Shown: positions 421 to 50,515 of the stretch, piece after piece | Numbering within the stretch: position 1 is the stretch's first letter | Layout: the number at the start of each line of letters is the position of its first letter | Source: a virus | Direction: 5' to 3' (one strand) | DNA: 52,924 bases | Virus record (IMG/VR): IMGVR_UViG_3300045973_001495 | Span: 1 to 52,924 of that record | Program-made: the position numbers and the translations under genes | The notes under the pieces: generated by a model | What the model saw: the letters and a program-made list of their open reading frames with translations, nothing else | What the model was told of the DNA's origin: nothing | Databases searched by the model: none

Positions 421-3368
421 TATTTTTGCCCCTTCGATATATCCAAGTAGTTTCTGTAAAGCTGCTTCATCGCCTGTTCGAGTGGGCGCTGTTGCGCGTC
501 CTTTTCTGCTGGCGTCAGGTCGCTGCGTGACTGGATAGCCAAGATGGCGTTGTAATAAGCATTGCCCGACTTGGTTGCGCCCGCTGCCATTTGCCCGAGT
601 TGGATCAACTCTTTTTCGTGGTCGTCCATGCTGGTCACATACTCCGCATCACCCTTCTTGACCGCCTGCTTGTAGGCTTCAGAATGGGCTTCCGCCTCCT
701 TGGCGACTTCGTAGAAGCGCGAGCGCAGTGCTTTGTAATCTGTGTTGCCAGCCACGCCGCGCAATATTGGCGTGTCTTTCAGATCAATAGCGTTCGCGTT
801 GCCTGTGCCGACTTGGATGGCGATATTCCCGGCGTCAAACCAGAATTTAGCCGCGCCACCGCCTAGCGTTGATGTCCAATATTTCAGGACTTCCGGCGAC
901 ACATCAGTAAGCTCGTCGATGTATTTGTTGCCGATGTGGTTAGCACCGAACTGCGAAACGCGGTCATAAATCCCGCCCTTCGTGCCTTTGAACATTTTTT
1001 CATTGTCTGGCTGGGCTTCCCTAAAGTCAGGCTTGAGATCGCTGCCGAAACTGTTTGTGTTGGTAAGCGGATTACCGACAATGGAAAGCGCCGTTGGCAA
1101 TGCGTTGGTGAATCCATTTGTCACCTTGATAGGAGAGAAAGTATCCAGCGCAGATACGCCAGCATGCATCGCTTCCTTGCCTACATCGGCACCACGCATC
1201 ACATTGCCAGTGCGTTGCCCCATCTGCATAATCCAGCCATACCCGTAGGGGATTGGCACCAGCACATAGCCCTTGCTGCCATCCTCATTCGTTTTGCCAG
1301 TAGGAAGAACGATGTTTCTATCCCGCGTGTTCTGCGGGATTTCATCCCAATCGTCATCATCCCAAGCCAAGCGGGCGAGCATCGCAATGGTCGCCATACC
1401 GCCAAGCAGCGCCCATGCTTCCGTCTTATGCTTGCCGGTGCTGAGATTCTTCAGAAGGTTGGCGGTGTCCTGTACGGCAGGATTAAAGAACAGGTAGGCA
1501 GCCGGGAAGAACTTGCTTTCCCCTTTGCGGTTGAAGTTGACCGTGACGTTCTTGGCCGCGCTTGCGGCTTCTGCCTGCGCATCTGCGGTGCTCATGCCGT
1601 TATTCATGTGAGCATCACGCACCGCTTTATATGTCGCCATGCGAAAGGCGTTTTCTGAAGCCACGTTTAGATGCTCAATCCAGCCAGCCAAAGCGCCCGC
1701 CGCCTTGCGCCCTGCCGTGCGAACACCGCGCCATGCCTTCGATTTATCCGCCTTGCTGGATGCCTCACTAAGCAGCGACATAGCGCCCTGCTGGTCATCC
1801 ATTGTGTTCTGCAATTCAGCATTGATGCGGTCAAGATCGGGCAGCCAAGATGCGCCGGTATTGCCACCGTTGGCGCGGTACTCTTCAATTAGCTTGGAAA
1901 ACTCGCCGCTGGCTTTGCCGCTGAACGAGTAGCGCACCAGTGAGCCGAAGATACCCGCATAGTTCTTGGCAGCAGTCGCCGCCACCTTTGCGCCTTCGGT
2001 TGCGGTCAGGTTGACCATGCCGGACAGCGCATCACGCACCATGTTCTTGAAGATGAATTCAGGGTTGTAGCCGGTGTAAACCTTGGACAGATACCCGTTA
2101 AGCGCCTTCGCATAACCGAGCGCTGTGTCTAACTGCTCCTGCCCCATGTTCGTGTAGGCGCGAGCTAGCAGATCATCGCGGAAAGTGACGCGAACCGGCT
2201 TGCCCTTGATGTAGATATACGCCTCGTTGTCTTGCAGCGCAGGAAGTGGGCGGGTTTGCGTCTTGCCATTGACGACAATCTTTGTCGTGTCTGGCTGGTC
2301 TAGGGTTATCAGGTTGCCAACCAGATCACGATTGTCGGCAATGAATTGCGCTAGGTGTTGGCCCACGGTGTTCTTTTCCACCGCCACTACGCCCGCGTAA
2401 TAGTCGCGCACGATGTTGGCAAAGACATCATCGGCTTCAGTCGTGCGGCCCGTGGCGCGCTTTTGCTTGCCGCTTACGGATTGCCCCTTGCCGGTACCGC
2501 CGCTGCTGTCGTCGTTGGTCTTGAGTGGCACATAGTATTTGTAAGCGCCATCGTAAGCCGCACGTTGTTCGGCGCTCACAATGCCCGCCTTCTGCATCAT
2601 ATCTAGCCGCTGCTTGGTGACTGCCTGCACCGCATCTGCTGCCTGTTTGATAGCCCTGAAGTTCGGCATTGCCTGCAAAGCAGCCATGCGATTATCAGCG
2701 TCCTTGTCGGTGATGCCCGAACCGCTGTCGTTGCTTGGATCAACCGTGCGAATCTGTGTATTCCGCTCTTTCGCGTGCGCAACCTTCAGGTATTCATTGA
2801 CGTTTTCATGCGTTACCTTACCGGCAGACATCGCATCAAGAATGGGCTTCAGCACCTTCTGCTCGAAGTCTTCGATTCGGCTGGCAATGCGCCCGTGACT
2901 GCGTTCTTCCGCCTTGTAGACGTTGTTTTGCGTCGTGACCTTGCCGCCGTTCTTCAGTGTTTCAGCGTGCAGGGTTGTCCAGCGGTTCCACTTGTCTTGG
3001 ATTGTGCGCTGGAATTTCTCTGTGCGGCTCTCATCAGGCAAGGACATTGGTTGCGGTTGGCCGGGCAGCACGCCACCGCTTGCACCGCTTGGCGGCTGCG
3101 CGGCTTTGGATTGCTTGATGCCCTGCGATGGCTCATCGTTGGTGGCATCTTCTGCATCATCCATCTTGAAGGCGCGGTACTTCATGCCGTGCTGTGCTTG
3201 GATGGCGTCAACGAACTCCGCACGCTCCTGCATCAGCGAATCAATCGCGCTTTGAATGGCCTTACGTTGATCGGCTTTGCTGGGGTTTTCACCCAAGTTC
3301 GCAAAGATGTTTGAAACGTCCTCATCGTGCATGTTCAGCACATCGGCAATGCAACTGCGTAGCGTCAT
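420..3368 (-). CDS. Large polyvalent protein with LPD38-like domain
   Basis: This 982-residue protein belongs to the polyvalent class: long multidomain phage proteins thought to be packaged and injected with DNA to protect it or act on the host. The stretch from about residue 400 to 720, including GYNPEFIFKNMVRDAL near residue 433 and FFNPAVQDTANLL further on, matches what I know of the LPD38 domain. The N-terminal 300 residues are charged and helical. A Pro/Gly linker near residue 90 (QPPSGASGGV) resembles linkers in the 2260-residue neighbour and is also encoded by an imperfect palindrome. The start overlaps the previous stop (ATGA) and the stop overlaps the next start. No catalytic motif is visible, so the biochemical role is unknown. 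Confidence 0.8.
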   Translation of the reverse strand: MTLRSCIADVLNMHDEDVSNIFANLGENPSKADQRKAIQSAIDSLMQERAEFVDAIQAQHGMKYRAFKMDDAEDATNDEPSQGIKQSKAAQPPSGASGGVLPGQPQPMSLPDESRTEKFQRTIQDKWNRWTTLHAETLKNGGKVTTQNNVYKAEERSHGRIASRIEDFEQKVLKPILDAMSAGKVTHENVNEYLKVAHAKERNTQIRTVDPSNDSGSGITDKDADNRMAALQAMPNFRAIKQAADAVQAVTKQRLDMMQKAGIVSAEQRAAYDGAYKYYVPLKTNDDSSGGTGKGQSVSGKQKRATGRTTEADDVFANIVRDYYAGVVAVEKNTVGQHLAQFIADNRDLVGNLITLDQPDTTKIVVNGKTQTRPLPALQDNEAYIYIKGKPVRVTFRDDLLARAYTNMGQEQLDTALGYAKALNGYLSKVYTGYNPEFIFKNMVRDALSGMVNLTATEGAKVAATAAKNYAGIFGSLVRYSFSGKASGEFSKLIEEYRANGGNTGASWLPDLDRINAELQNTMDDQQGAMSLLSEASSKADKSKAWRGVRTAGRKAAGALAGWIEHLNVASENAFRMATYKAVRDAHMNNGMSTADAQAEAASAAKNVTVNFNRKGESKFFPAAYLFFNPAVQDTANLLKNLSTGKHKTEAWALLGGMATIAMLARLAWDDDDWDEIPQNTRDRNIVLPTGKTNEDGSKGYVLVPIPYGYGWIMQMGQRTGNVMRGADVGKEAMHAGVSALDTFSPIKVTNGFTNALPTALSIVGNPLTNTNSFGSDLKPDFREAQPDNEKMFKGTKGGIYDRVSQFGANHIGNKYIDELTDVSPEVLKYWTSTLGGGAAKFWFDAGNIAIQVGTGNANAIDLKDTPILRGVAGNTDYKALRSRFYEVAKEAEAHSEAYKQAVKKGDAEYVTSMDDHEKELIQLGQMAAGATKSGNAYYNAILAIQSRSDLTPAEKDAQQRPLEQAMKQLYRNYLDISKGQK

Positions 3369-5715: not shown

Positions 5716-6077
5716 TATCTCTCCTTGATCGTCATGCCCGACATAGCGCCGGATTTGTCACGGGTTATGTCCACGCGGAATTCTTTTGGCTTGGTAGCCA
5801 AGCTCTCAGCTAGTGCGCTGATCGCATCCGACTGCATCCCAGCCAGTGTTTTGAGCGCTGCCGTCAGCGCGTCAGCCACCGGCTTCATGTCAACCTTCAC
5901 CGCCTCAACGGTGATTTTTGGCTCCACCTTCACAATGGGCGCAGGTATCGACGGCATTTCAATCTTCGGCGCTTCCATCGTTGGGGATAGATGAAAGTGC
6001 ATTTCTGGCTTGGGTTCTGGCTTTGGCGTTGGCCTTGCCGTGGTGTCAAGCCGGTCTAGTTCGTTTACGCTGCGCAT
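5715..6077 (-). CDS. Proline-rich hypothetical virion protein
   Basis: This 120-residue protein has a Pro/Lys/Glu-rich, probably extended N-terminal half (PTPKPEPKPEM, then repeated PxIxVEPKI units), followed by a helix at about 70-95 and a short basic C-terminus with an RVDITRDKSG strand. Similar proline-rich linkers occur in small phage proteins that bridge virion components. The start lies 13 bases inside the end of the 2260-residue gene, so expression is probably coupled. No known domain is recognised. Confidence 0.55.
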   Translation of the reverse strand: MRSVNELDRLDTTARPTPKPEPKPEMHFHLSPTMEAPKIEMPSIPAPIVKVEPKITVEAVKVDMKPVADALTAALKTLAGMQSDAISALAESLATKPKEFRVDITRDKSGAMSGMTIKER

Positions 6078-9000
6078 TTCAGCACCTTATTCAAGTCGGC
6101 AAGTCGCCGGTCATAGTCGTTAAGTTCTTTGGTGATGTTGAATTTAGCGTCAACCGTGCGGCCTTCACTGCGCACATAAACCGGCACAGTCACCGTTTCC
6201 TTACCGAAGCGGCTGTTGTTAAATTGCTCAGGATAAGACGCAAAAAACCCCGCACTTGGCGGGGTTTTGCTGAATTTTGCACCTAGCGCTCGTAGCGCGT
6301 CCTGCTCTTCTGGTGTTAGGCCTTCGTAGCCGTCCTGTACTTCGATTCCATATCCTTGCGCTTCTGCATCTGTTCCGCTGCCATCGCCCGCAAGTTGTCC
6401 CGCGCCTGCGATTCCTTGGTCAGCTTCTGAATCGTATCCCACTCTTCCGGTGTCATCCAATCGCGCTTTTGCATAGTCGTTCCAATCTAAAGTGCCATCC
6501 ATTTGGGTGGAGTCGGTGCTGTAGTTCTTCCACCGCGCGCCTAACTTCTTCCAAAACGGGCGAGCATCTTTCTGATCGTCGTGCCCGTTGGTGATGTCGA
6601 TAATATCAACCTTGCCGCCAGAAGTTGCAAGCATTGCCTTGATAACTTGCTCCCCATAGCCTTTGCTTTGCTTTGAATCGTCAATCTTGATATTGCGAAG
6701 CACCGAGAAGCCGTCACCATCCGGCTGCAAAATCACGAAGCCGACATCCTGCTTGGCAATGCGGATTCTGAAAGCTACTGATCCATTTGGGTGAGTCAAG
6801 ACAGGGCGCAGCGTTACATCATCGTTATTCGTGTACTCACCATTCGCCTGCTTTTCCAAGCGCGCAAACACACGTCCAGCGTCGTATTTCTCACCCTTGC
6901 TACCCGCAACTGCCGCCGATCCATTGGAGCCAACAAAACCGCCCTTGCCTGCTGTTTGGGCGGATTGCTTCGCCATCATCAGCAGATCGTTTGTCGTCAG
7001 CTTGCCCGGCTCCATCACGCCAGCACGCATCAGGCGCAAGCGAACCATTGAGACAAAATCACGAATCAGGTTGGCGGCTACTGAACCGAAGCGCTTGGCG
7101 ATGCGCTCTAGCGCGTTGCCGTCTATAACCTTGATGCCTTCTTTAGCTGCCCAATTGGCGGCAACTTCCACGGTATAGGTAAGCGTTTCCTCGGCGCTCT
7201 CCGTTTCACCGGCAGATTCAAGGCGGCGCTGCACTTCATCAGCAAGCAAGCGCTTTGGCGATCCTTCCGGCGCGGCAAGTCCTGCCTTGTGGTTGCTTAC
7301 TGCTGCTTGAGTCAGTGCGTCAAACTGCTTGCGCAGTGCTGGGTCACTGTCCAAACCACCATGCAAATACTCATGCAGGAAAACACCATGCGCGGTGTCT
7401 TCAGCCAGCACGTCGCTGTTGAAAGCGTGGATGCCGGAAACAGGGTCATAAAACGCCTGCATCTGGCCGTCAGCGCTTAACTTTGTTTCCAGCTTGCTAG
7501 AATTGGAAACGCCACCCGAAGGTGGCGCTTTTTTTAATTCATTGCTGCTAACTGCTTCTTGAACCAGATCGCTCGATCTTCCACGGTTCGCTTCAGAGAT
7601 TCTAACTCCGATAGAGTTAGCTGATTTGTAGTTGGTAAGGTATCTGGCCTCACTTTCTGTGAGGTCATCAAATTGCCTTCCAGTTGCTTTGAAGAATCCA
7701 TCTTCTAAGTCCCCATGCTTTTCGCGTAGCCGAGCCAATGTTTCTTCCGTTGGCTCAATAATTCGACTGTACTGCTTTCCACTCAATGCGACAATAGATT
7801 TTACCGAGCCACCATTGTCTTCAATGTACTTTGCCAAGGAGGACAACGTGCCACCTTGAGTTATCGTGTCATCAAGAAGAACGTAATTTCTACCCTGTTC
7901 AACTTCGCCGATAAAAGTTGGCTTGTTAAATATCCTTTCAATCCCATCCATTGATGTTCTCTTTGGCGAGTTTGATTGAATGATTTTTGAATCGGCTTCT
8001 GCGTTGAGTTTCTTTGCCAAGACTTCAGCAGCAGCATGAGGAATTGCATTCTTTCCAGATGCTTCGATGGATGAAACGCCAACAATAATTGGATCATTAC
8101 CAGCTTGACTACGTACCTTTTCTACAAGGTTTGGCGTTATCAACTTTAAAGCCAATCTTAATGCACCAACTTTGTCACCAGACTTGCCAAGTTCATAATC
8201 ATCACCCGACATAATGCCAAGTTGATGCTCAATAATTGCATCTGGAAGTTTAAGAATGGAATTCTTCACCTCATCAGCCAAGCGGGCGCGTTCTGTTGCT
8301 ACGTCCGTGCCATTCACCTTCGCACGCGCCTGCGCAACTTGCTCAATGATTGCGTCTTGCGTACCAACAACCATGCCGCCGCGTTCGTTCTTCCGACCTC
8401 GCGCCATCAGGCGATCAACGAGCTTGCTACCGAAAGCGCTACCTAGTGCCTTGAGTAGTTGGGCGGGGGTGGATTTCTGCGGGGTGGCGGTGCGGGAATA
8501 AAGAACCTTTCTGCTGTTTTCTTCCTTAACCTTGATCGTGCTGAATAGCTTTTCAAAGGCTGCATTGATTTCGGCTTTTTCAGACTCAGTAGGGTACGGG
8601 TAGCTTTCCTTCGCGCCCTCTCCCTGCTCTACCTCTTCAATGACGTTCCATGTCTGGTGATCTAGGATGTTTGCTAAATAGTCGTTGCTTAGGCCGTTCT
8701 GCTTTGCTTTATCAATCAGGAACGATTCAAAAGCGCGGGCTGTCAACTCTTCAATAGTTGACCAATAGTTTTTGGTTCTGCGCGCATCAAGCTCTTTCGA
8801 GCGATCAACCATCTTGCTGTTATTGATTGCCTTAACTACATCGGCATAGGCATCAAGCACTTCCTTGCGTATGCCTTCATGTTTTGTTCGTAGGTTGCTG
8901 GTTATGTCGCCGGTTTTACTACCCACAGCGCGGCTGAAATAGTTGGCTACTGCGTGCCACCACTCGTGACCAAGCGATCCTGCACCGTTTTTTCTGGTCA

Positions 9001-12000
9001 GATTGATAGCAACTTTTGCAGGCTCGAAGTGCGCGGCTGCTGGATTTACTCCGCCGTGACCACGCGAACCGAAACCAATCCCAAGCGTACCGTTTAAGCT
9101 GATTGCATCAGGCGGAATTCCAATTAGTTCGGCAAGATCGCTGAATGCGTCATAGGCACGGTTAAGATTGTCTTGGCGCTCTGCTTGCGGCATGGAATTG
9201 CCAAGCTCAATGCGCCCATCGAACCCGAAGGCGTCAGCAAAGTCCTTGGCAGAAACATTACCATCACGGTGCTCTTTCCCCGTCCGATCTGCATTTGTCT
9301 CGCGCCGCTCATTGGGGGTGCTTGTTTTCTTATCCAGCAAGGCAAGCAATTCTGCCTTGTTATCAGCTAGATATTTTCTAGCTTCATCAGGCGTCTTTAG
9401 GCCGGATTTCAGATCAATATATTTACCAGCAGCAATCTTCTTCCCGATTGTGTAGCCCGGAACACCGCGCTCAGAGTAAATATCTAAGGACTTCTCTTTC
9501 TTTGGTGTGTCGCTAGCTTGCTCGCTTGCAATGCGTGATTTGGCAAAAGCTACTGCTTCATCAAATGTGTCGAAATACTTAGTTTTTGAATATGGCTCAC
9601 CTGATCTGCTTATGGAGAATTTCTTAATGCCATGCGGGTGCTTAACGCCATCGAACGTGCTGTAAATTCCAGACTCCAACTCAAGCCCGTTCGTTTTCGT
9701 GAAATCAGGAAAGCCAAGTGCTTTGTAGAAATCAATCTTACTGCGCAACTCCATAGCGCCGGATAACTTGGTGTTATTGATAATTTCATTAACACCGTCC
9801 ATCCCGACGCCATTAAACAAATGTGACGCAAGGCTGCGAATAGTCTTAAGCTTTTCCACCCATGCTTTTAGCAGGTATGGCTTTCTCGGCTTGTTGCCAA
9901 TGAATTCGCGCAATGCTTTTACTGTTGCAAGCGCTTCGTTTGAAGAGCCATTCAAGTTCAATTGTTCATAATTTGGCTCAGGGAAGTGCTTGCTTAGTGT
10001 TATCTCACTTGCTTCTGGCAAGTCTTGAGTAAGCGAGGCGACAAGCTCTGCTCGCTTATCCTTTGCAGCGCCGCCAATTTTCTGACCGTAGTCTTCAATT
10101 GGCCCGGTGTTGTTGAACTTCTTGGGCGCTTCCGCTACTGGTTCAACCTTCGCTGCGGACTCATCAAACAGACTCGACTGCCCACGCGCCGCCCCTTCGT
10201 CTGCGGTGCGATCTGAGCCGGTAAGCGTGAACTCGCCTAGCTGTGCATCTGCATCAGCTTTCCGAGTCGCTTTGCGCGACTCTGTGGCTGCTTGCTCTTC
10301 CTGTTGCCGTGCTTCCGCATTCAGGCGCGGCAAGTCTGCTACGTCTAGTCCTTCGAGTCCGAACTCTTCAGCGCTTCGCGGCGTTGCTTGAGACTCTTCA
10401 GCCACTCCTTCCGCTGTGCTGGTGGCACCTTCAGGAAGTCGCGTATCAATCGCATCATTGCTGGAGACTGCTGGCCGTCCATCGAGGGCGGCAAGGAATT
10501 GTTCTTCTGTGACATTGCTCTTTGCGCTCCACGCTATTTCATAAAAGGCGTCTAGTTCTTGGTCGCTTACGTCTGGATAAGCATCATCGTTGAATTCCGC
10601 ACCGGCACCGGACTCATCCATGTGGGCAAATTCTGCCGCTCTGATTGCCCCATTCTTGGTTTGTTCGTGATGCGTGCGCAGCAAGGCATTAACGGTGCGG
10701 CGCTCTTGCACATCCATCTTCTCACCGGTAAGCGCCTTATCCACCGCCCGCATCGTGGCGGCAGGACTCATGCGCTCGGCAGGTGATAACGCACCCCACC
10801 ATTCAGCGTTCGGCACCCATGACGTGCGCCCAATCTTATCCGATCCATCTACCTGCGGCGTGCGTGTCAGCGCGCCGCCAGTTTCCGACCAACCCGCTTG
10901 CGCCGCAAGTGCGCGCAACTCTGGCTCGTATGCCTTAGCTAAAGTCGGGTCTACTTTGTCTTTGGGCTGGATTACAGCAAGGCTTTTCTGTCCAACTTCA
11001 TCAGTATTTGCCGCGCCTTGAGCGCTTGCCGCTGCGCCTTCTTGCGTTTGCGTCGTTCCTTCTTGTGTAGCCAGTGGGCTAGGTTTGGCATCATTGCTAG
11101 GTGACTCCACTTGAACAATACGGCGGTCAATTTCCGCCTGCGCCTTTGCCCTTGCGCCAGCGCTGGCGGCTTCTGTGTTCAATACCTTGGCTAGCGCCCT
11201 GTCTGATAATTGCGTGACGGGTGTACCGGCAATGGTAGGAATAGAAACGCCCTCAACCGAGGGCGCTTTTAGGTCAATTTGTTGGCCGTCTAACTGCCGC
11301 TTAACGATTGGCGGCTGCTGGCCTAGTGATTGCGCGTTATCAACCTGCGCAATGTCGTCTAGCCGCTTACCTAGTTCGATGTTTTGCACTTGTGCAGGCG
11401 TGCCAACACCTTCAGAACTGGCGATTAGCGTGCTGTCTGGTGCGGGCAATCCTTGCAACTCAGGCGCTTGTACCGACTCAGGGCGCTCGATACTGGCGTT
11501 GCCCTCAGCATCCACCACAACACGCGGTTGCTCCATGTCCAGCCGGTTGGTGGCGGGGGCTTCTTCGCCTGCCGGAATAAACGAACCTTCCAGCGCATCG
11601 CTTGGCGCTGGAAGTGCCAGCGGGCGTGTGATCTTGTGTTCGCCGTGGGTGATTGTGTCGCCCATGCCAAGTGCGTCTAGCAGTGCATCTTGGTTTACAT
11701 CAAGCGCCCCGCCCGTGGCGTCTGGTAGCGTGATGTTCAGTTTTTCGGCTGGGGTTTTTTCGGCTTCTGGCTTCTCGGGAGCGCTGCGATTATTGAACGA
11801 TGAAGCGCCACCACCAACTGCGCCCAATAAGCCGCCAGATAAACCGCCCATTACAGCCTGCTCGGCCACGCCATCCATCAGGGGTTTACCTTGCCCCAAG
11901 TTCTGCCACATTTGTTCAGTAGCAGATTGCGGCGTTTCTTCTAGCAAACCCTCTTTAAGCGCGCCCTTGGCTGCTGCTTTAAATACACCATCCTTGGCCT

Positions 12001-12847
12001 CGCGCATACCCGAAGCAGCAAGACCAGCTTCAACATCCTCTAGGCCAAACTTTGCGCCGATCTTGTTTGATAGCTGCCCGACTGCTGCGGTTGTTACGCC
12101 GGAGCCGATAGCAGAAAGCGCTTGCCTCGCCCCAAGCTCGCCTTTTGCTGCGTAGTCTGCGGCTTGTGATCCTGCGGTTTGCGCACCTTCTCCGGCAGAA
12201 GAAAGCGCGGCCAAACGCGGCATGGCCTTTTCAACTGCTGCACGCCCTGCCATTAACGCAACTTCTTCGGTTGCGCCTGCCGCCATTGCGGTGCTTACAG
12301 CTCCGCTGAAAATCTTGCCAGCCACTAACTTAACGCCACCGGCAAGCGTTGCCATTTGTGGCAATGACTCAATGGCAGATTCTAGGATGGTGCCGGGATT
12401 CTTTAGCGCTTCGCCAATGCCGGAAACGATGCCGTCATTTTGGAATGCTTCATGTATTTTTTGAGAGTTACGCTTGCTAACGTCTGAATGCTTATCGCCC
12501 CAATAATCGGAGGCCATCTTTAGATCAAGATTGTTGTCAGCAAGAAACTCAGTGATTGTGCGGTTCTTTTCGCCGGTTACTGCGTCCACGCCTGCGCGGA
12601 TAGGTGTTGCAGCCAAGTCGGTAAGGCCAACAATGCCTCGCGGGACTTCAGCAAGGCCTTTCATCAGCGATGCGCCAGCATCCTGCGCGACTTCACCCCA
12701 TGTTCGGCTGCGCTTGTCCTCTTCCTCTTTGCGCTTGCGCTCTTCTTCTTGGGCTAGCTGATGCTCCTGCATTAGCCGATAAGTACGGTCAATTAGATCG
12801 TCTGACGGCCTGCTAGATTTAGCTAGGTTGTCGATTTGCTGAGACAT
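6065..12847 (-). CDS. Giant polyvalent protein: LPD1-like metalloprotease, PRTase, second HExxH, GNAT
   Basis: This 2260-residue protein is the largest in the window and probably an injected effector/protection protein. Residues 1-60 are charged and helical. About 130-350 are Ala/Gly-rich amphipathic helices like those of ejection proteins. About 350-900 are low-complexity linkers. About 900-1180 resemble DarB-type polyvalent regions (NTGPIEDYGQKIGGA). About 1200-1330 form an LPD1-like region with HEWWH at 1294-1298, a zinc-peptidase HExxH signature. About 1530-1760 are phosphoribosyltransferase-like, with the PRPP loop LLDDTITQGGT (D1659, D1660). A second HExxH, HEYLH, is at 1825-1829. About 1960-2110 are GNAT-like, with SKGYGEQ (G2063-x-G2065) and a FWKKLGA motif. 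The four motifs are seen directly; activity and substrates are inferred. Four in-frame hairpins interrupt the linkers (listed separately). It follows its own promoter/terminator leader. Confidence 0.85.
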   Translation of the reverse strand: MSQQIDNLAKSSRPSDDLIDRTYRLMQEHQLAQEEERKRKEEEDKRSRTWGEVAQDAGASLMKGLAEVPRGIVGLTDLAATPIRAGVDAVTGEKNRTITEFLADNNLDLKMASDYWGDKHSDVSKRNSQKIHEAFQNDGIVSGIGEALKNPGTILESAIESLPQMATLAGGVKLVAGKIFSGAVSTAMAAGATEEVALMAGRAAVEKAMPRLAALSSAGEGAQTAGSQAADYAAKGELGARQALSAIGSGVTTAAVGQLSNKIGAKFGLEDVEAGLAASGMREAKDGVFKAAAKGALKEGLLEETPQSATEQMWQNLGQGKPLMDGVAEQAVMGGLSGGLLGAVGGGASSFNNRSAPEKPEAEKTPAEKLNITLPDATGGALDVNQDALLDALGMGDTITHGEHKITRPLALPAPSDALEGSFIPAGEEAPATNRLDMEQPRVVVDAEGNASIERPESVQAPELQGLPAPDSTLIASSEGVGTPAQVQNIELGKRLDDIAQVDNAQSLGQQPPIVKRQLDGQQIDLKAPSVEGVSIPTIAGTPVTQLSDRALAKVLNTEAASAGARAKAQAEIDRRIVQVESPSNDAKPSPLATQEGTTQTQEGAAASAQGAANTDEVGQKSLAVIQPKDKVDPTLAKAYEPELRALAAQAGWSETGGALTRTPQVDGSDKIGRTSWVPNAEWWGALSPAERMSPAATMRAVDKALTGEKMDVQERRTVNALLRTHHEQTKNGAIRAAEFAHMDESGAGAEFNDDAYPDVSDQELDAFYEIAWSAKSNVTEEQFLAALDGRPAVSSNDAIDTRLPEGATSTAEGVAEESQATPRSAEEFGLEGLDVADLPRLNAEARQQEEQAATESRKATRKADADAQLGEFTLTGSDRTADEGAARGQSSLFDESAAKVEPVAEAPKKFNNTGPIEDYGQKIGGAAKDKRAELVASLTQDLPEASEITLSKHFPEPNYEQLNLNGSSNEALATVKALREFIGNKPRKPYLLKAWVEKLKTIRSLASHLFNGVGMDGVNEIINNTKLSGAMELRSKIDFYKALGFPDFTKTNGLELESGIYSTFDGVKHPHGIKKFSISRSGEPYSKTKYFDTFDEAVAFAKSRIASEQASDTPKKEKSLDIYSERGVPGYTIGKKIAAGKYIDLKSGLKTPDEARKYLADNKAELLALLDKKTSTPNERRETNADRTGKEHRDGNVSAKDFADAFGFDGRIELGNSMPQAERQDNLNRAYDAFSDLAELIGIPPDAISLNGTLGIGFGSRGHGGVNPAAAHFEPAKVAINLTRKNGAGSLGHEWWHAVANYFSRAVGSKTGDITSNLRTKHEGIRKEVLDAYADVVKAINNSKMVDRSKELDARRTKNYWSTIEELTARAFESFLIDKAKQNGLSNDYLANILDHQTWNVIEEVEQGEGAKESYPYPTESEKAEINAAFEKLFSTIKVKEENSRKVLYSRTATPQKSTPAQLLKALGSAFGSKLVDRLMARGRKNERGGMVVGTQDAIIEQVAQARAKVNGTDVATERARLADEVKNSILKLPDAIIEHQLGIMSGDDYELGKSGDKVGALRLALKLITPNLVEKVRSQAGNDPIIVGVSSIEASGKNAIPHAAAEVLAKKLNAEADSKIIQSNSPKRTSMDGIERIFNKPTFIGEVEQGRNYVLLDDTITQGGTLSSLAKYIEDNGGSVKSIVALSGKQYSRIIEPTEETLARLREKHGDLEDGFFKATGRQFDDLTESEARYLTNYKSANSIGVRISEANRGRSSDLVQEAVSSNELKKAPPSGGVSNSSKLETKLSADGQMQAFYDPVSGIHAFNSDVLAEDTAHGVFLHEYLHGGLDSDPALRKQFDALTQAAVSNHKAGLAAPEGSPKRLLADEVQRRLESAGETESAEETLTYTVEVAANWAAKEGIKVIDGNALERIAKRFGSVAANLIRDFVSMVRLRLMRAGVMEPGKLTTNDLLMMAKQSAQTAGKGGFVGSNGSAAVAGSKGEKYDAGRVFARLEKQANGEYTNNDDVTLRPVLTHPNGSVAFRIRIAKQDVGFVILQPDGDGFSVLRNIKIDDSKQSKGYGEQVIKAMLATSGGKVDIIDITNGHDDQKDARPFWKKLGARWKNYSTDSTQMDGTLDWNDYAKARLDDTGRVGYDSEADQGIAGAGQLAGDGSGTDAEAQGYGIEVQDGYEGLTPEEQDALRALGAKFSKTPPSAGFFASYPEQFNNSRFGKETVTVPVYVRSEGRTVDAKFNITKELNDYDRRLADLNKVLKCAA
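6244..6268 (-). other. In-frame terminator-like hairpin 1 inside the giant gene
   Basis: A perfect 10-bp stem (AAAACCCCGC / GCGGGGTTTT) with a 5-base loop lies inside the coding sequence and reads as KTPPSAGFF near residue 2194-2202. On the transcribed strand it ends in a T-run, like a rho-independent terminator. It separates the GNAT-like region from the last 60 residues. Confidence 0.75.
7510..7527 (-). other. In-frame terminator-like hairpin 2 inside the giant gene
   Basis: A 7-bp perfect stem (CGCCACC / GGTGGCG) has a UUCG tetraloop on the transcript strand. A run of seven A residues lies on its 5' side on that strand. It encodes KKAPPSGGV near residue 1774-1782 and lies between the phosphoribosyltransferase-like segment and the second HExxH segment. 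Confidence 0.75.
11248..11265 (-). other. In-frame hairpin 3 inside the giant gene
   Basis: A 7-bp perfect stem (CGCCCTC / GAGGGCG) with a 4-base loop encodes LKAPSVEGV near residue 528-535, within the low-complexity linker. The peptide has the same K-x-P...G-V layout as hairpin 2. Confidence 0.65.
11587..11614 (-). other. In-frame hairpin 4 inside the giant gene
   Basis: A 10-bp perfect stem (CTTCCAGCGC / GCGCTGGAAG) with an 8-base loop encodes LPAPSDALEGSF near residue 412-421, in the linker after the Ala/Gly-rich helices. Confidence 0.65.
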
Positions 12848-43701: not shown

Positions 43702-44766
43702 ATGAAAATCCCCACTGGCCTAATCGAAGACCGCGACCAGACGCTAGACGATATTGACGCGGCAATGGAAGAACGCGCAGCGCTGGAACAAGAGCGCCCT
43801 TACTTTGGCATGTCTGGCATGAAAGATTGCGCCCGCGCTATGTGGTACGGGTTCAGGTGGGCGGTTAAGCCCGCATTCAAGGCTGGCACGCTGCGCAAGT
43901 TTGAAGACGGCCACCGAACTGAAGACTTGATGGCTGCACGGTTGCGCATGGTTGAAGGCATCACGCTTTACACGCACGACCCAGCCACCGGCAAGCAGTT
44001 TGGTTTTCAGGATTTTGGCGGGCATTTCAAAGGCCACATGGACGGCGCAATAAAAGGCATTTATGCCGCGCCAAAAAAATGGCATGTGTGGGAATGCAAA
44101 GCGTCAGGAGATGACGTTTACACCAAGTTTCTGAAGGCCAAGAAAGACAAGGGCAGTAAGTCAGCTCTAAAAGACTGGAATCCTACTTACTACGCGCAAG
44201 CCCAGCTTTATATGCACTACTCAAAAATGGATCGCCACTACCTGACGGTAACAAGTGCAGGAGGGCGCGACCACACAAGTTGCCGAACTGAGTACAGCCA
44301 ACAGGATGCGGAGCAATTTATTGCCCGCGCTGAGTCGGTAATTTTTGCCGATGAGCCACCGTTGCGCCCCTATTCGGCAGACTTTTTTAAGTGCAAATGG
44401 TGCGACTTCCGCCAGATTTGCCACAACACCGAAGCGCCTAACGTCAACTGCCGCACCTGTGCGCATAGCACTGTGCAGCGTGCAGGCGGGTGGACGTGTG
44501 ACAAAGCCGAGCCGGTTGAAATCACAGTGGAACAACAGCGAGCCGGGTGCGGATCGCATCGGTACATACCGATCCTCTTGGACAACTTCGCGGAAATGGT
44601 CACAGCCAACGCGGGGGATGTCGCCTACCGCAACAAGCTGACAGAAAACACCTTCACCAATGGCGATCTAAGCAGCGTGGAAATCAAAGCCGCGCAGGAC
44701 AAGAGCGCCCTTGGTGATCCAGACGTACAAGCCCTACGCGCTGCGGGGGCGACAATTACAGGGTAA
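43702..44766 (+). CDS. PD-(D/E)XK exonuclease (RecB/Cas4-like)
   Basis: This 354-residue nuclease contains GHRTEDL (70-76), GHMDGAI with D114, ECK with E131 and K133, and YYAQAQLYM with its Gln near 166-168, the usual PD-(D/E)XK order. The C-terminal half has clustered Cys (CKWCDFRQIC, CRTCAHS, TCDK, GCGSH), as in Cas4/AddB-like iron-sulfur nucleases. It probably resects DNA ends for Sak4. Confidence 0.8.
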   Translation: MKIPTGLIEDRDQTLDDIDAAMEERAALEQERPYFGMSGMKDCARAMWYGFRWAVKPAFKAGTLRKFEDGHRTEDLMAARLRMVEGITLYTHDPATGKQFGFQDFGGHFKGHMDGAIKGIYAAPKKWHVWECKASGDDVYTKFLKAKKDKGSKSALKDWNPTYYAQAQLYMHYSKMDRHYLTVTSAGGRDHTSCRTEYSQQDAEQFIARAESVIFADEPPLRPYSADFFKCKWCDFRQICHNTEAPNVNCRTCAHSTVQRAGGWTCDKAEPVEITVEQQRAGCGSHRYIPILLDNFAEMVTANAGDVAYRNKLTENTFTNGDLSSVEIKAAQDKSALGDPDVQALRAAGATITG

Positions 44767-49155: not shown

Positions 49156-49685
49156 TTACCAAAGTTGAAGCGCTAGCTGACCAGTGGCTAAACAGCGGCA
49201 AAGGTGAATGGCACGCGGCTGGCGTGGAAATGTACAACGCCCTCCGCGAAATCGCTGCGACGATGCGGCGTGGTGAAGTAGAAATGCCCGAACCGCATAA
49301 GCCACCAATGTACGCGACTAGCGAAAACACTCCGGCTGTTCGTGATGGTTACGCAGTTGGCGGATACGAAATCGAGGAGGGTCTGTATTCGTATGACCAG
49401 ATGGTTGCTTATGCTGACGCCGCCGTACTGGCTGCGATAGGGGATGTTTCCCTCATTGATGAGGGTAGTAAGGGAAAACCCGCACCCAAGGCCGAGCCGG
49501 TATCAAAGCCACCACTAACGGGGCGCTGGCACCACGGCTGCGGAACAATCGTATCAGGAACCTTGCGAATCGCGAGAGAGGACTTTGAGTACAACGCCAG
49601 TGACGAATGTAGGGATGAAATATTCGACTGGATTTGCGCAACGCTTAATGCCGCCATCGCAGCGGCGAAGGAACAAGGGCGATGA
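49152..49685 (+). CDS. Hypothetical accessory protein
   Basis: This 177-residue protein starts MITKVEALADQW at the same junction and ends AAAKEQGR. The first half is charged helical, the second half contains WHHGCGTIVSGTLRIARED. The ending AAKEQG is shared with a later gene (50518), in a similar junction. Function unknown. Confidence 0.5.
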   Translation: MITKVEALADQWLNSGKGEWHAAGVEMYNALREIAATMRRGEVEMPEPHKPPMYATSENTPAVRDGYAVGGYEIEEGLYSYDQMVAYADAAVLAAIGDVSLIDEGSKGKPAPKAEPVSKPPLTGRWHHGCGTIVSGTLRIAREDFEYNASDECRDEIFDWICATLNAAIAAAKEQGR

Positions 49686-50515
49686 GGAACCCATTTTTAA
49701 TCAACTCTCCCACCTGCATTTCGTTCTCTGGCGGCAGAACAAGCGCCTTTATGTTGAAAAAAACAATTGAAGCAAACGACGGATTGCCGCCAGAAGCTAT
49801 AGTCTGTTTTGCAAATACAGGGAAAGAAACAGAAGAAACACTGGAGTTCGTGCGTGATTGTGAACGTAATTGGAATGTGCCAATTCGCTGGCTTGAATTT
49901 CGGGATGATGAACGAAAATTCGCATCGGTTACTTTTGAAACAGCAAGCAGAAATGGTGAACCTTTTGATGCGCTGATAATGAAACGGGGAATGCTGCCAA
50001 ATCCAGTAAGTAGATTTTGCACCGTTGAATTGAAAGTTAGGACAATCCACCGTTATCTAAAATCAATAGGTTGGAGCGAGTGGAATTCATTTCTCGGCAT
50101 CCGCGCCGATGAGCCGTATCGAGTTGCCAAGATAAAAAATAATGACTACGGAAAGCACGAAGAGAAATCTGCCCCACTTGCCGAGGCTGGCGTAACTGCC
50201 GCTGACGTTGGGGATTTTTGGAAAGCACAATTGTTTGATTTGAATCATCCAAACATCAACGGTGTGACTATGGAAGGCAATTGCGATTTGTGCTTTCTAA
50301 AAGGTGGCAATCAAGTATTTAGTTTGATTCAACAAAAACCCGAGCGCGCAATTTGGTGGTCACAAGCAGAAAGCATGATTCAGACCACTAAATTAAGTGG
50401 TCGAAGATTCAGAATTGACAGGCCGTCTTATCAAGAAATGCTGGATTTCGCATCAGCCCAAAAGGATTGGATTGATGATGCAACAGGAAAAATTCCATGC
50501 TATTGCGGAGATTAA
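49682..50515 (+). CDS. PAPS reductase-like PP-loop protein
   Basis: This 277-residue protein has the ATP-binding PP-loop FSGGRTSA (SGGRTS at 16-21) of phosphoadenosine phosphosulfate reductase-like enzymes. It also has many Cys, including RFCTVELK, GNCDLCFL and a terminal PCYCGD. PP-loop enzymes use ATP to activate sulfur or nucleotide chemistry; the exact reaction of phage versions is not settled. The gene is richer in A/T than its neighbours, a sign of transfer. DNA modification or anti-defence is possible but not shown. Confidence 0.8.
   Translation: MRNPFLINSPTCISFSGGRTSAFMLKKTIEANDGLPPEAIVCFANTGKETEETLEFVRDCERNWNVPIRWLEFRDDERKFASVTFETASRNGEPFDALIMKRGMLPNPVSRFCTVELKVRTIHRYLKSIGWSEWNSFLGIRADEPYRVAKIKNNDYGKHEEKSAPLAEAGVTAADVGDFWKAQLFDLNHPNINGVTMEGNCDLCFLKGGNQVFSLIQQKPERAIWWSQAESMIQTTKLSGRRFRIDRPSYQEMLDFASAQKDWIDDATGKIPCYCGD

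Follow-up and report, generated by a model that had tools for sequence, protein, structure and literature searches.

Giant "polyvalent" proteins, which occur in phages as well as in conjugative elements (Iyer et al. 2017, PMC5512222), fuse LPD5/LPD1, PRTase and other modules into one chain encoded among virion genes, and PRTases have been described there as occurring both solo and fused, having been incorporated independently into such proteins; the text of that work, however, does not describe junction terminators, read-through linkers or a +1-frame open reading frame (ORF) at the PRTase end, all of which the locus presented here seems to have. A PRTase with a DDT motif is also found in KfrC of IncU/IncP plasmids (RA3; PMC8124265, PMC7414963), which is, unlike in our case, a separate plasmid gene, has a downstream Rho-independent terminator that works in E. 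coli (PMC7414963), and for which a +1-frame tail is likewise unreported in those two papers. Rickettsia palindromic elements offer a further parallel, being palindromes that reside inside genes and are read in frame. Phage morons are extra genes with a promoter and a terminator of their own.

The stretch of DNA analyzed as a whole (hereafter, the window) is a 52.9 kb virus contig (52,924 nucleotides) with portal, terminase and major head genes, and it contains a giant gene whose single, very large product combines LPD5, LPD1 and relatives of PRTase and zincin, as polyvalent proteins do. The features of this gene and its surroundings that are needed below are as follows:

6065..12847, minus strand: giant polyvalent gene, an ORF of 2260 aa with LPD5 and LPD1 Pfam matches
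7577..8248, minus strand: PRTase (KfrC-type) domain, residues ~1534-1757, with a phrog_22413 match and plasmid/phage relatives
6851..7468, minus strand: zincin-like module (HEYLHGG), after the hairpin at 7510
6539..6754, minus strand: GNAT-like domain (weak Pfam match), before the hairpin at 6244
6244..6268, minus strand: in-frame terminator-like hairpin of 10 bp, loop of 5, sense-strand tail TTTTTT, encoding KTPPSAGFF
7510..7527, minus strand: in-frame hairpin of 7 perfect bp (10 bp with G-U), loop of 4 (UUCG), encoding KKAPPSGGVS, with T7 on the opposite strand
11248..11265, minus strand: in-frame hairpin of 7 perfect bp (10 bp with G-U), loop of 4, tail TTTCTATT, encoding LKAPSVEGVS
11587..11614, minus strand: palindrome of 10 bp, loop of 8, with no T-tract, encoding LPAPSDALEG
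3061..3110, minus strand: degenerate hairpin within the LPD38 gene, encoding QPPSGASGGV and matching in position an in-frame terminator of a related phage (L226)
12869..12893, minus strand: comparison hairpin, intergenic and of ordinary terminator-like form, a short way upstream of the giant gene

The KfrC-type assignment follows from homology to plasmid KfrC/PRTase proteins with the DDT...GGT motif, and solved PRTases gave a weak profile match to the module over its catalytic stretch. The PRTase stretch is AT-rich (GC of 0.40-0.45 against ~0.55), which, together with a terminator of its own, makes it resemble a moron, yet it differs from one in being fused in frame with its terminator translated. 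Elsewhere in the window, PHROG matches indicate a Cas4-domain exonuclease (43702-44766) and a phosphoadenosine phosphosulfate reductase-like gene of the host-takeover category (49682-50515).

A previous sequence-only reading of this DNA had reported four in-frame palindromes inside the giant gene, encoding the related peptides KTPPSAG, KKAPPSGGV, LKAPSVEGV and LPAPSDALEG, and all four perfect stems were indeed recovered within it along with those peptides. That they might be a product of chance, or of the codon composition of Pro/Gly-rich linkers, is very improbable: with a threshold of at least 7 bp and at least 6 G/C, the gene holds four stems, whereas 200 synonymous shuffles gave 0.39 on average (P=0.005, roughly a ten-fold excess over chance) and codon-order shuffles 0.37, its two 10-bp stems compare with 0.03 in shuffles, only one such stem is seen in 24.7 kb made up of 15 further ORFs of the window, and other phages again have a hairpin at this junction. 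What speaks for chance is the palindrome at 11587, which has neither terminator features nor relatives.

The likeness to terminators, which had been claimed for the palindromes as a group, was borne out for three of them (6244, 7510 and 11248, each a GC-rich stem-loop with a short loop) and found no support at the T-tract-less 11587. On the sense strand, the hairpins at 7510 and 11248 form 10-bp helices (7 perfect pairs, a G-U and two A-U), with an outer stem that is nearly identical in both (AAAGCGCC...GGCGTTTC). The U-tract following the stem is full at 6244 (T6; the only stem with the T-run that had been noted), partial at 11248, reduced to TTT at 7510 and absent at 11587. The UUCG loop with a flanking A-run, mentioned earlier as a further terminator trait, belongs to 7510, where the loop is real, whereas the A-run is merely the T7 of the opposite strand.

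The junction at 7510 turned out to be the most informative one. Searches with the PRTase as an alignment query yielded 80 viral loci and 80 loci of bacterial genomes, in which the module either stands alone or belongs to a giant, the largest reaching 4300 aa; in Acinetobacter plasmids, for instance, it forms a gene of its own with 237 codons. Where the PRTase gene stands alone, it ends at the point equivalent to 7510, followed by the stop of a +1-frame tail (see below) and then by ordinary terminators. Among 84 non-redundant loci surveyed at this junction (36 stand-alone and 48 "fused", the latter being 37 giants with ORFs >900 aa and 11 plasmid genes of 438-464 aa), a hairpin with a T-rich tail lies within 75 nt after the +1 stop in 14/36 stand-alone loci (1.0% in random upstream control windows) and in 8/37 giants (1.4% in the same kind of control; the window's own hairpin, with its short sense T-tract, is left out of this count), and none of the 11 plasmid genes has a hairpin after the +1 stop. 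Local folding energy just past the +1 stop falls within the top 5% of the own locus in 12 of the 37 giants (combined p=1.7e-6), and sense-strand terminator-like hairpins number 15 across 52 giants, as opposed to 5.0 after codon shuffling. A clear hairpin is lacking at this junction in about three quarters of the PRTase giants, many showing an FSRS motif instead, and the hairpin is thus not required there. In L013/L099 the zincin precedes the PRTase, the opposite of the order in the window (6851-8248), so the modules flanking the hairpin have been permuted.

Recurring (L/F)FSRS or YSR motifs were seen at the module boundaries of giant proteins, after the PRTase (L014-L055 and similar), and the window has similar ones at its own boundaries (VLYSRT at residue ~1450 and AKFSKT at ~2190); the (V/L/F)S(V/T)SG encoded by hairpin tails is similar to them. 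The motif is possibly a processing site.

In-frame terminator-like hairpins are not confined to PRTase junctions. A pattern scan of viral contigs for GGGNTTTCTGTTTCTGG, whose counts represent a sample, found the hairpin in 38 of 80 matches among those listed, 31 of these 38 being outside long ORFs and seven inside (one of which, L217, is the contig of L083), with other modules as neighbours; all seven are read in frame as (V/L/F)SVSG. A mobile palindromic element that enters giant genes in frame and serves there as a linker, much like the Rickettsia elements, could be envisaged here, as the same hairpin, TTTCTGTTTCTGG tail and frame occur at non-homologous junctions (L111, L083 twice, L033, L226 and L244). 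This is quite improbable, given that the 31 hairpins outside long ORFs, among the matches listed, stand as ordinary terminators, that stems differ in sequence among lineages instead of forming a family of near-identical copies, and that the hairpins are tied to module ends, which for the PRTase means the gene end of its stand-alone relatives; insertion of palindromes as linkers, the second option of the sequence-only reading, has accordingly lost ground. In 21/21 in-gene cases examined, a single phase is used by the main frame to read the hairpin, giving AP-rich linkers, and the hairpin at 6244 shares this phase. The bias is due in part to the other two frames, which would give hydrophobic peptides (like KPRxxRGFLFL or PAKCGxFCF), and it suggests that only those fusions that yield a soluble linker survive.

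A second junction where gene arrangement differs between phages is provided by L226, a related phage with an ORF of 2541 aa in which a perfect terminator lies in frame at residue ~1612-1619. BLASTP of this protein against the separate LPD38 protein of the window gave an alignment starting at L226 residue 1614 and LPD38 residue 92, the very place of the weak fifth hairpin (3061-3110), so that the L226 terminator joins LPD38, a separate gene in the window, to another module, which is the kind of correspondence that the sequence-only reading had proposed to look for. The fifth hairpin, which had been listed as a weaker example, does fold, albeit imperfectly.

Taken together, the hairpins at 7510, 6244 and 11248 are probably intrinsic gene-end terminators that were captured as separate modules fused into one giant polyvalent gene: genes with terminators of their own would have become fused, and the terminator, now read through, would have turned into a protein linker, the fused frame presumably reading each in the single phase that gives a soluble Pro/Ser/Gly peptide (KAPPSxG-V/L-S). 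Growth of the gene by fusion, as the sequence-only reading had proposed, is well supported at 7510, with a separate, terminator-bearing gene elsewhere and other giants retaining the hairpin, supported also for the LPD38 remnant through L226, and plausible for 6244 and 11248, which share only the sequence type and phase. It finds no support at 11587, a palindrome with no T-tract and no relatives that stays unexplained. No relatives were found for the C-terminal 250 aa or for the linker around 11248; tblastn of the last 80 aa gave no match in phages, and when viral contigs were scanned with the PRTase-zincin or C-terminal part as a single sequence, no relatives came up either. Fusion of separate genes would be a simpler reading than breakage of a large one, and it agrees with the independent incorporation of PRTases (PMC5512222).

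The unit captured at 7510 would comprise the PRTase module, an overlapping +1-frame ORF for a helical tail ("LTxSEIESL...") and the terminator. This conserved ORF, tied to the hairpin and missed by the sequence-only reading, is what is new here, no description of it being found in the polyvalent-protein (PMC5512222) or KfrC (PMC8124265, PMC7414963) texts. In the window, it is represented by:

7534..7620, minus strand: conserved +1-frame tail ORF, LTLSELESLKRTVEDRAIWFKKQLAAMN followed by a stop, which overlaps the PRTase end and stops 6 nt before the perfect 7510 stem
7666..7668, minus strand: possible ATG start of the +1 ORF with AAGG upstream, not conserved in relatives

A sequence of the form L[TS]xSEIESL, 15-30 further residues and a stop overlaps the PRTase end in nearly all loci (L013-L178), stand-alone or fused, always in the +1 frame, and its stop sits a few to ~30 nt upstream of the hairpin. 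Substitutions fall at frame-0 third positions until the Leu codon and at +1 third positions thereafter, a shift that is clear initially and weaker downstream. With the first nine codons set aside, the similarity of amino acids against column shuffles reached z=22.5 in +1, compared with 5.7 in frame 0 and 1.9 in +2 (18.1, 8.9 and 1.7 for the giants alone), where the z-scores include relatedness and it is the comparison between frames that counts. Judging from these patterns, the +1 ORF is under selection in giants and stand-alone genes alike. A plasmid search with the tail recovered both PRTase overlaps and free-standing copies, the latter having their own starts in small plasmids (L093, L094, L095 and L097), and a search for the tail within other proteins of phages, where it might form a domain, gave no significant match. 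One fusion alignment of the PRTase and the +1 tail, meant for structure prediction, was rejected; its tail rows had matched a look-alike LTESEARYL motif. Non-PRTase modules with a +1 ORF ending shortly before an in-frame hairpin were observed as well, at L033 residue 1164 and in L192 (...AAKAQRLAKNKTQAK and a stop; MSTDNKSDQNREK...KPKVE and a stop).

The product predicted for this ORF may be made via +1 frameshifting or from an overlapping micro-gene. The frame under constraint changes at a fixed point, frame 0 giving way to +1, as would be expected of programmed +1 frameshifting; no known +1 slippery site or stimulator was found among the PRTase loci, and the junction codons (NNN NYT) vary. 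Start codons within 8 or 20 codons of the ORF are at the level of synonymous shuffling (P=0.065 and 0.8), with a slight excess of ATG within 40 codons (P=0.005), and no start codon is conserved in the PRTase context. In IncP-like kfrC genes (L009, L096, L098 and others), a +1-frame ATG lies 19 codons upstream, often preceded by AGGAG, and could start a micro-gene overlapping kfrC.

Two paired substitutions that preserve stems yet alter amino acids (A to E in L103; N to K and V to F in L077 vs L125) point to maintenance of the stem, which is suggestive only, with one pair per alignment and alignment A3 mixing non-homologous sites. If hairpins have residual terminator activity and the +1 ORF is translated, main-frame ribosomes would probably open the hairpin and go on to complete the whole protein, whereas ribosomes ending at the +1 stop just upstream would leave it free to form, and transcription could end there. 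We tentatively consider, as a possibility, that the +1 ORF may be expressed inside the giant gene by frameshifting or internal initiation, with coupling between its stop and the in-frame terminator, so that the hairpin would act as a live switch between a short post-PRTase product and the full-length polyvalent protein. A broader proposal, that the hairpins, however they arose, are kept because they attenuate the giant mRNA from within the gene today, would account for the intact stems and T-tails of many lineages, the amino-acid-changing paired substitutions and the closeness of the +1 stop, but it seems unlikely, as most giants have no hairpin and the sense-strand T-tract at 7510 has been lost down to TTT.

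Translated terminators could serve as physical marks for tracing how giant phage proteins were put together out of individual genes. A small reading frame, apparently conserved across Proteobacterial plasmids and phages, has been exposed at the end of the PRTase family, and the family that hides this +1 frame is one whose plasmid member is toxic when overproduced.
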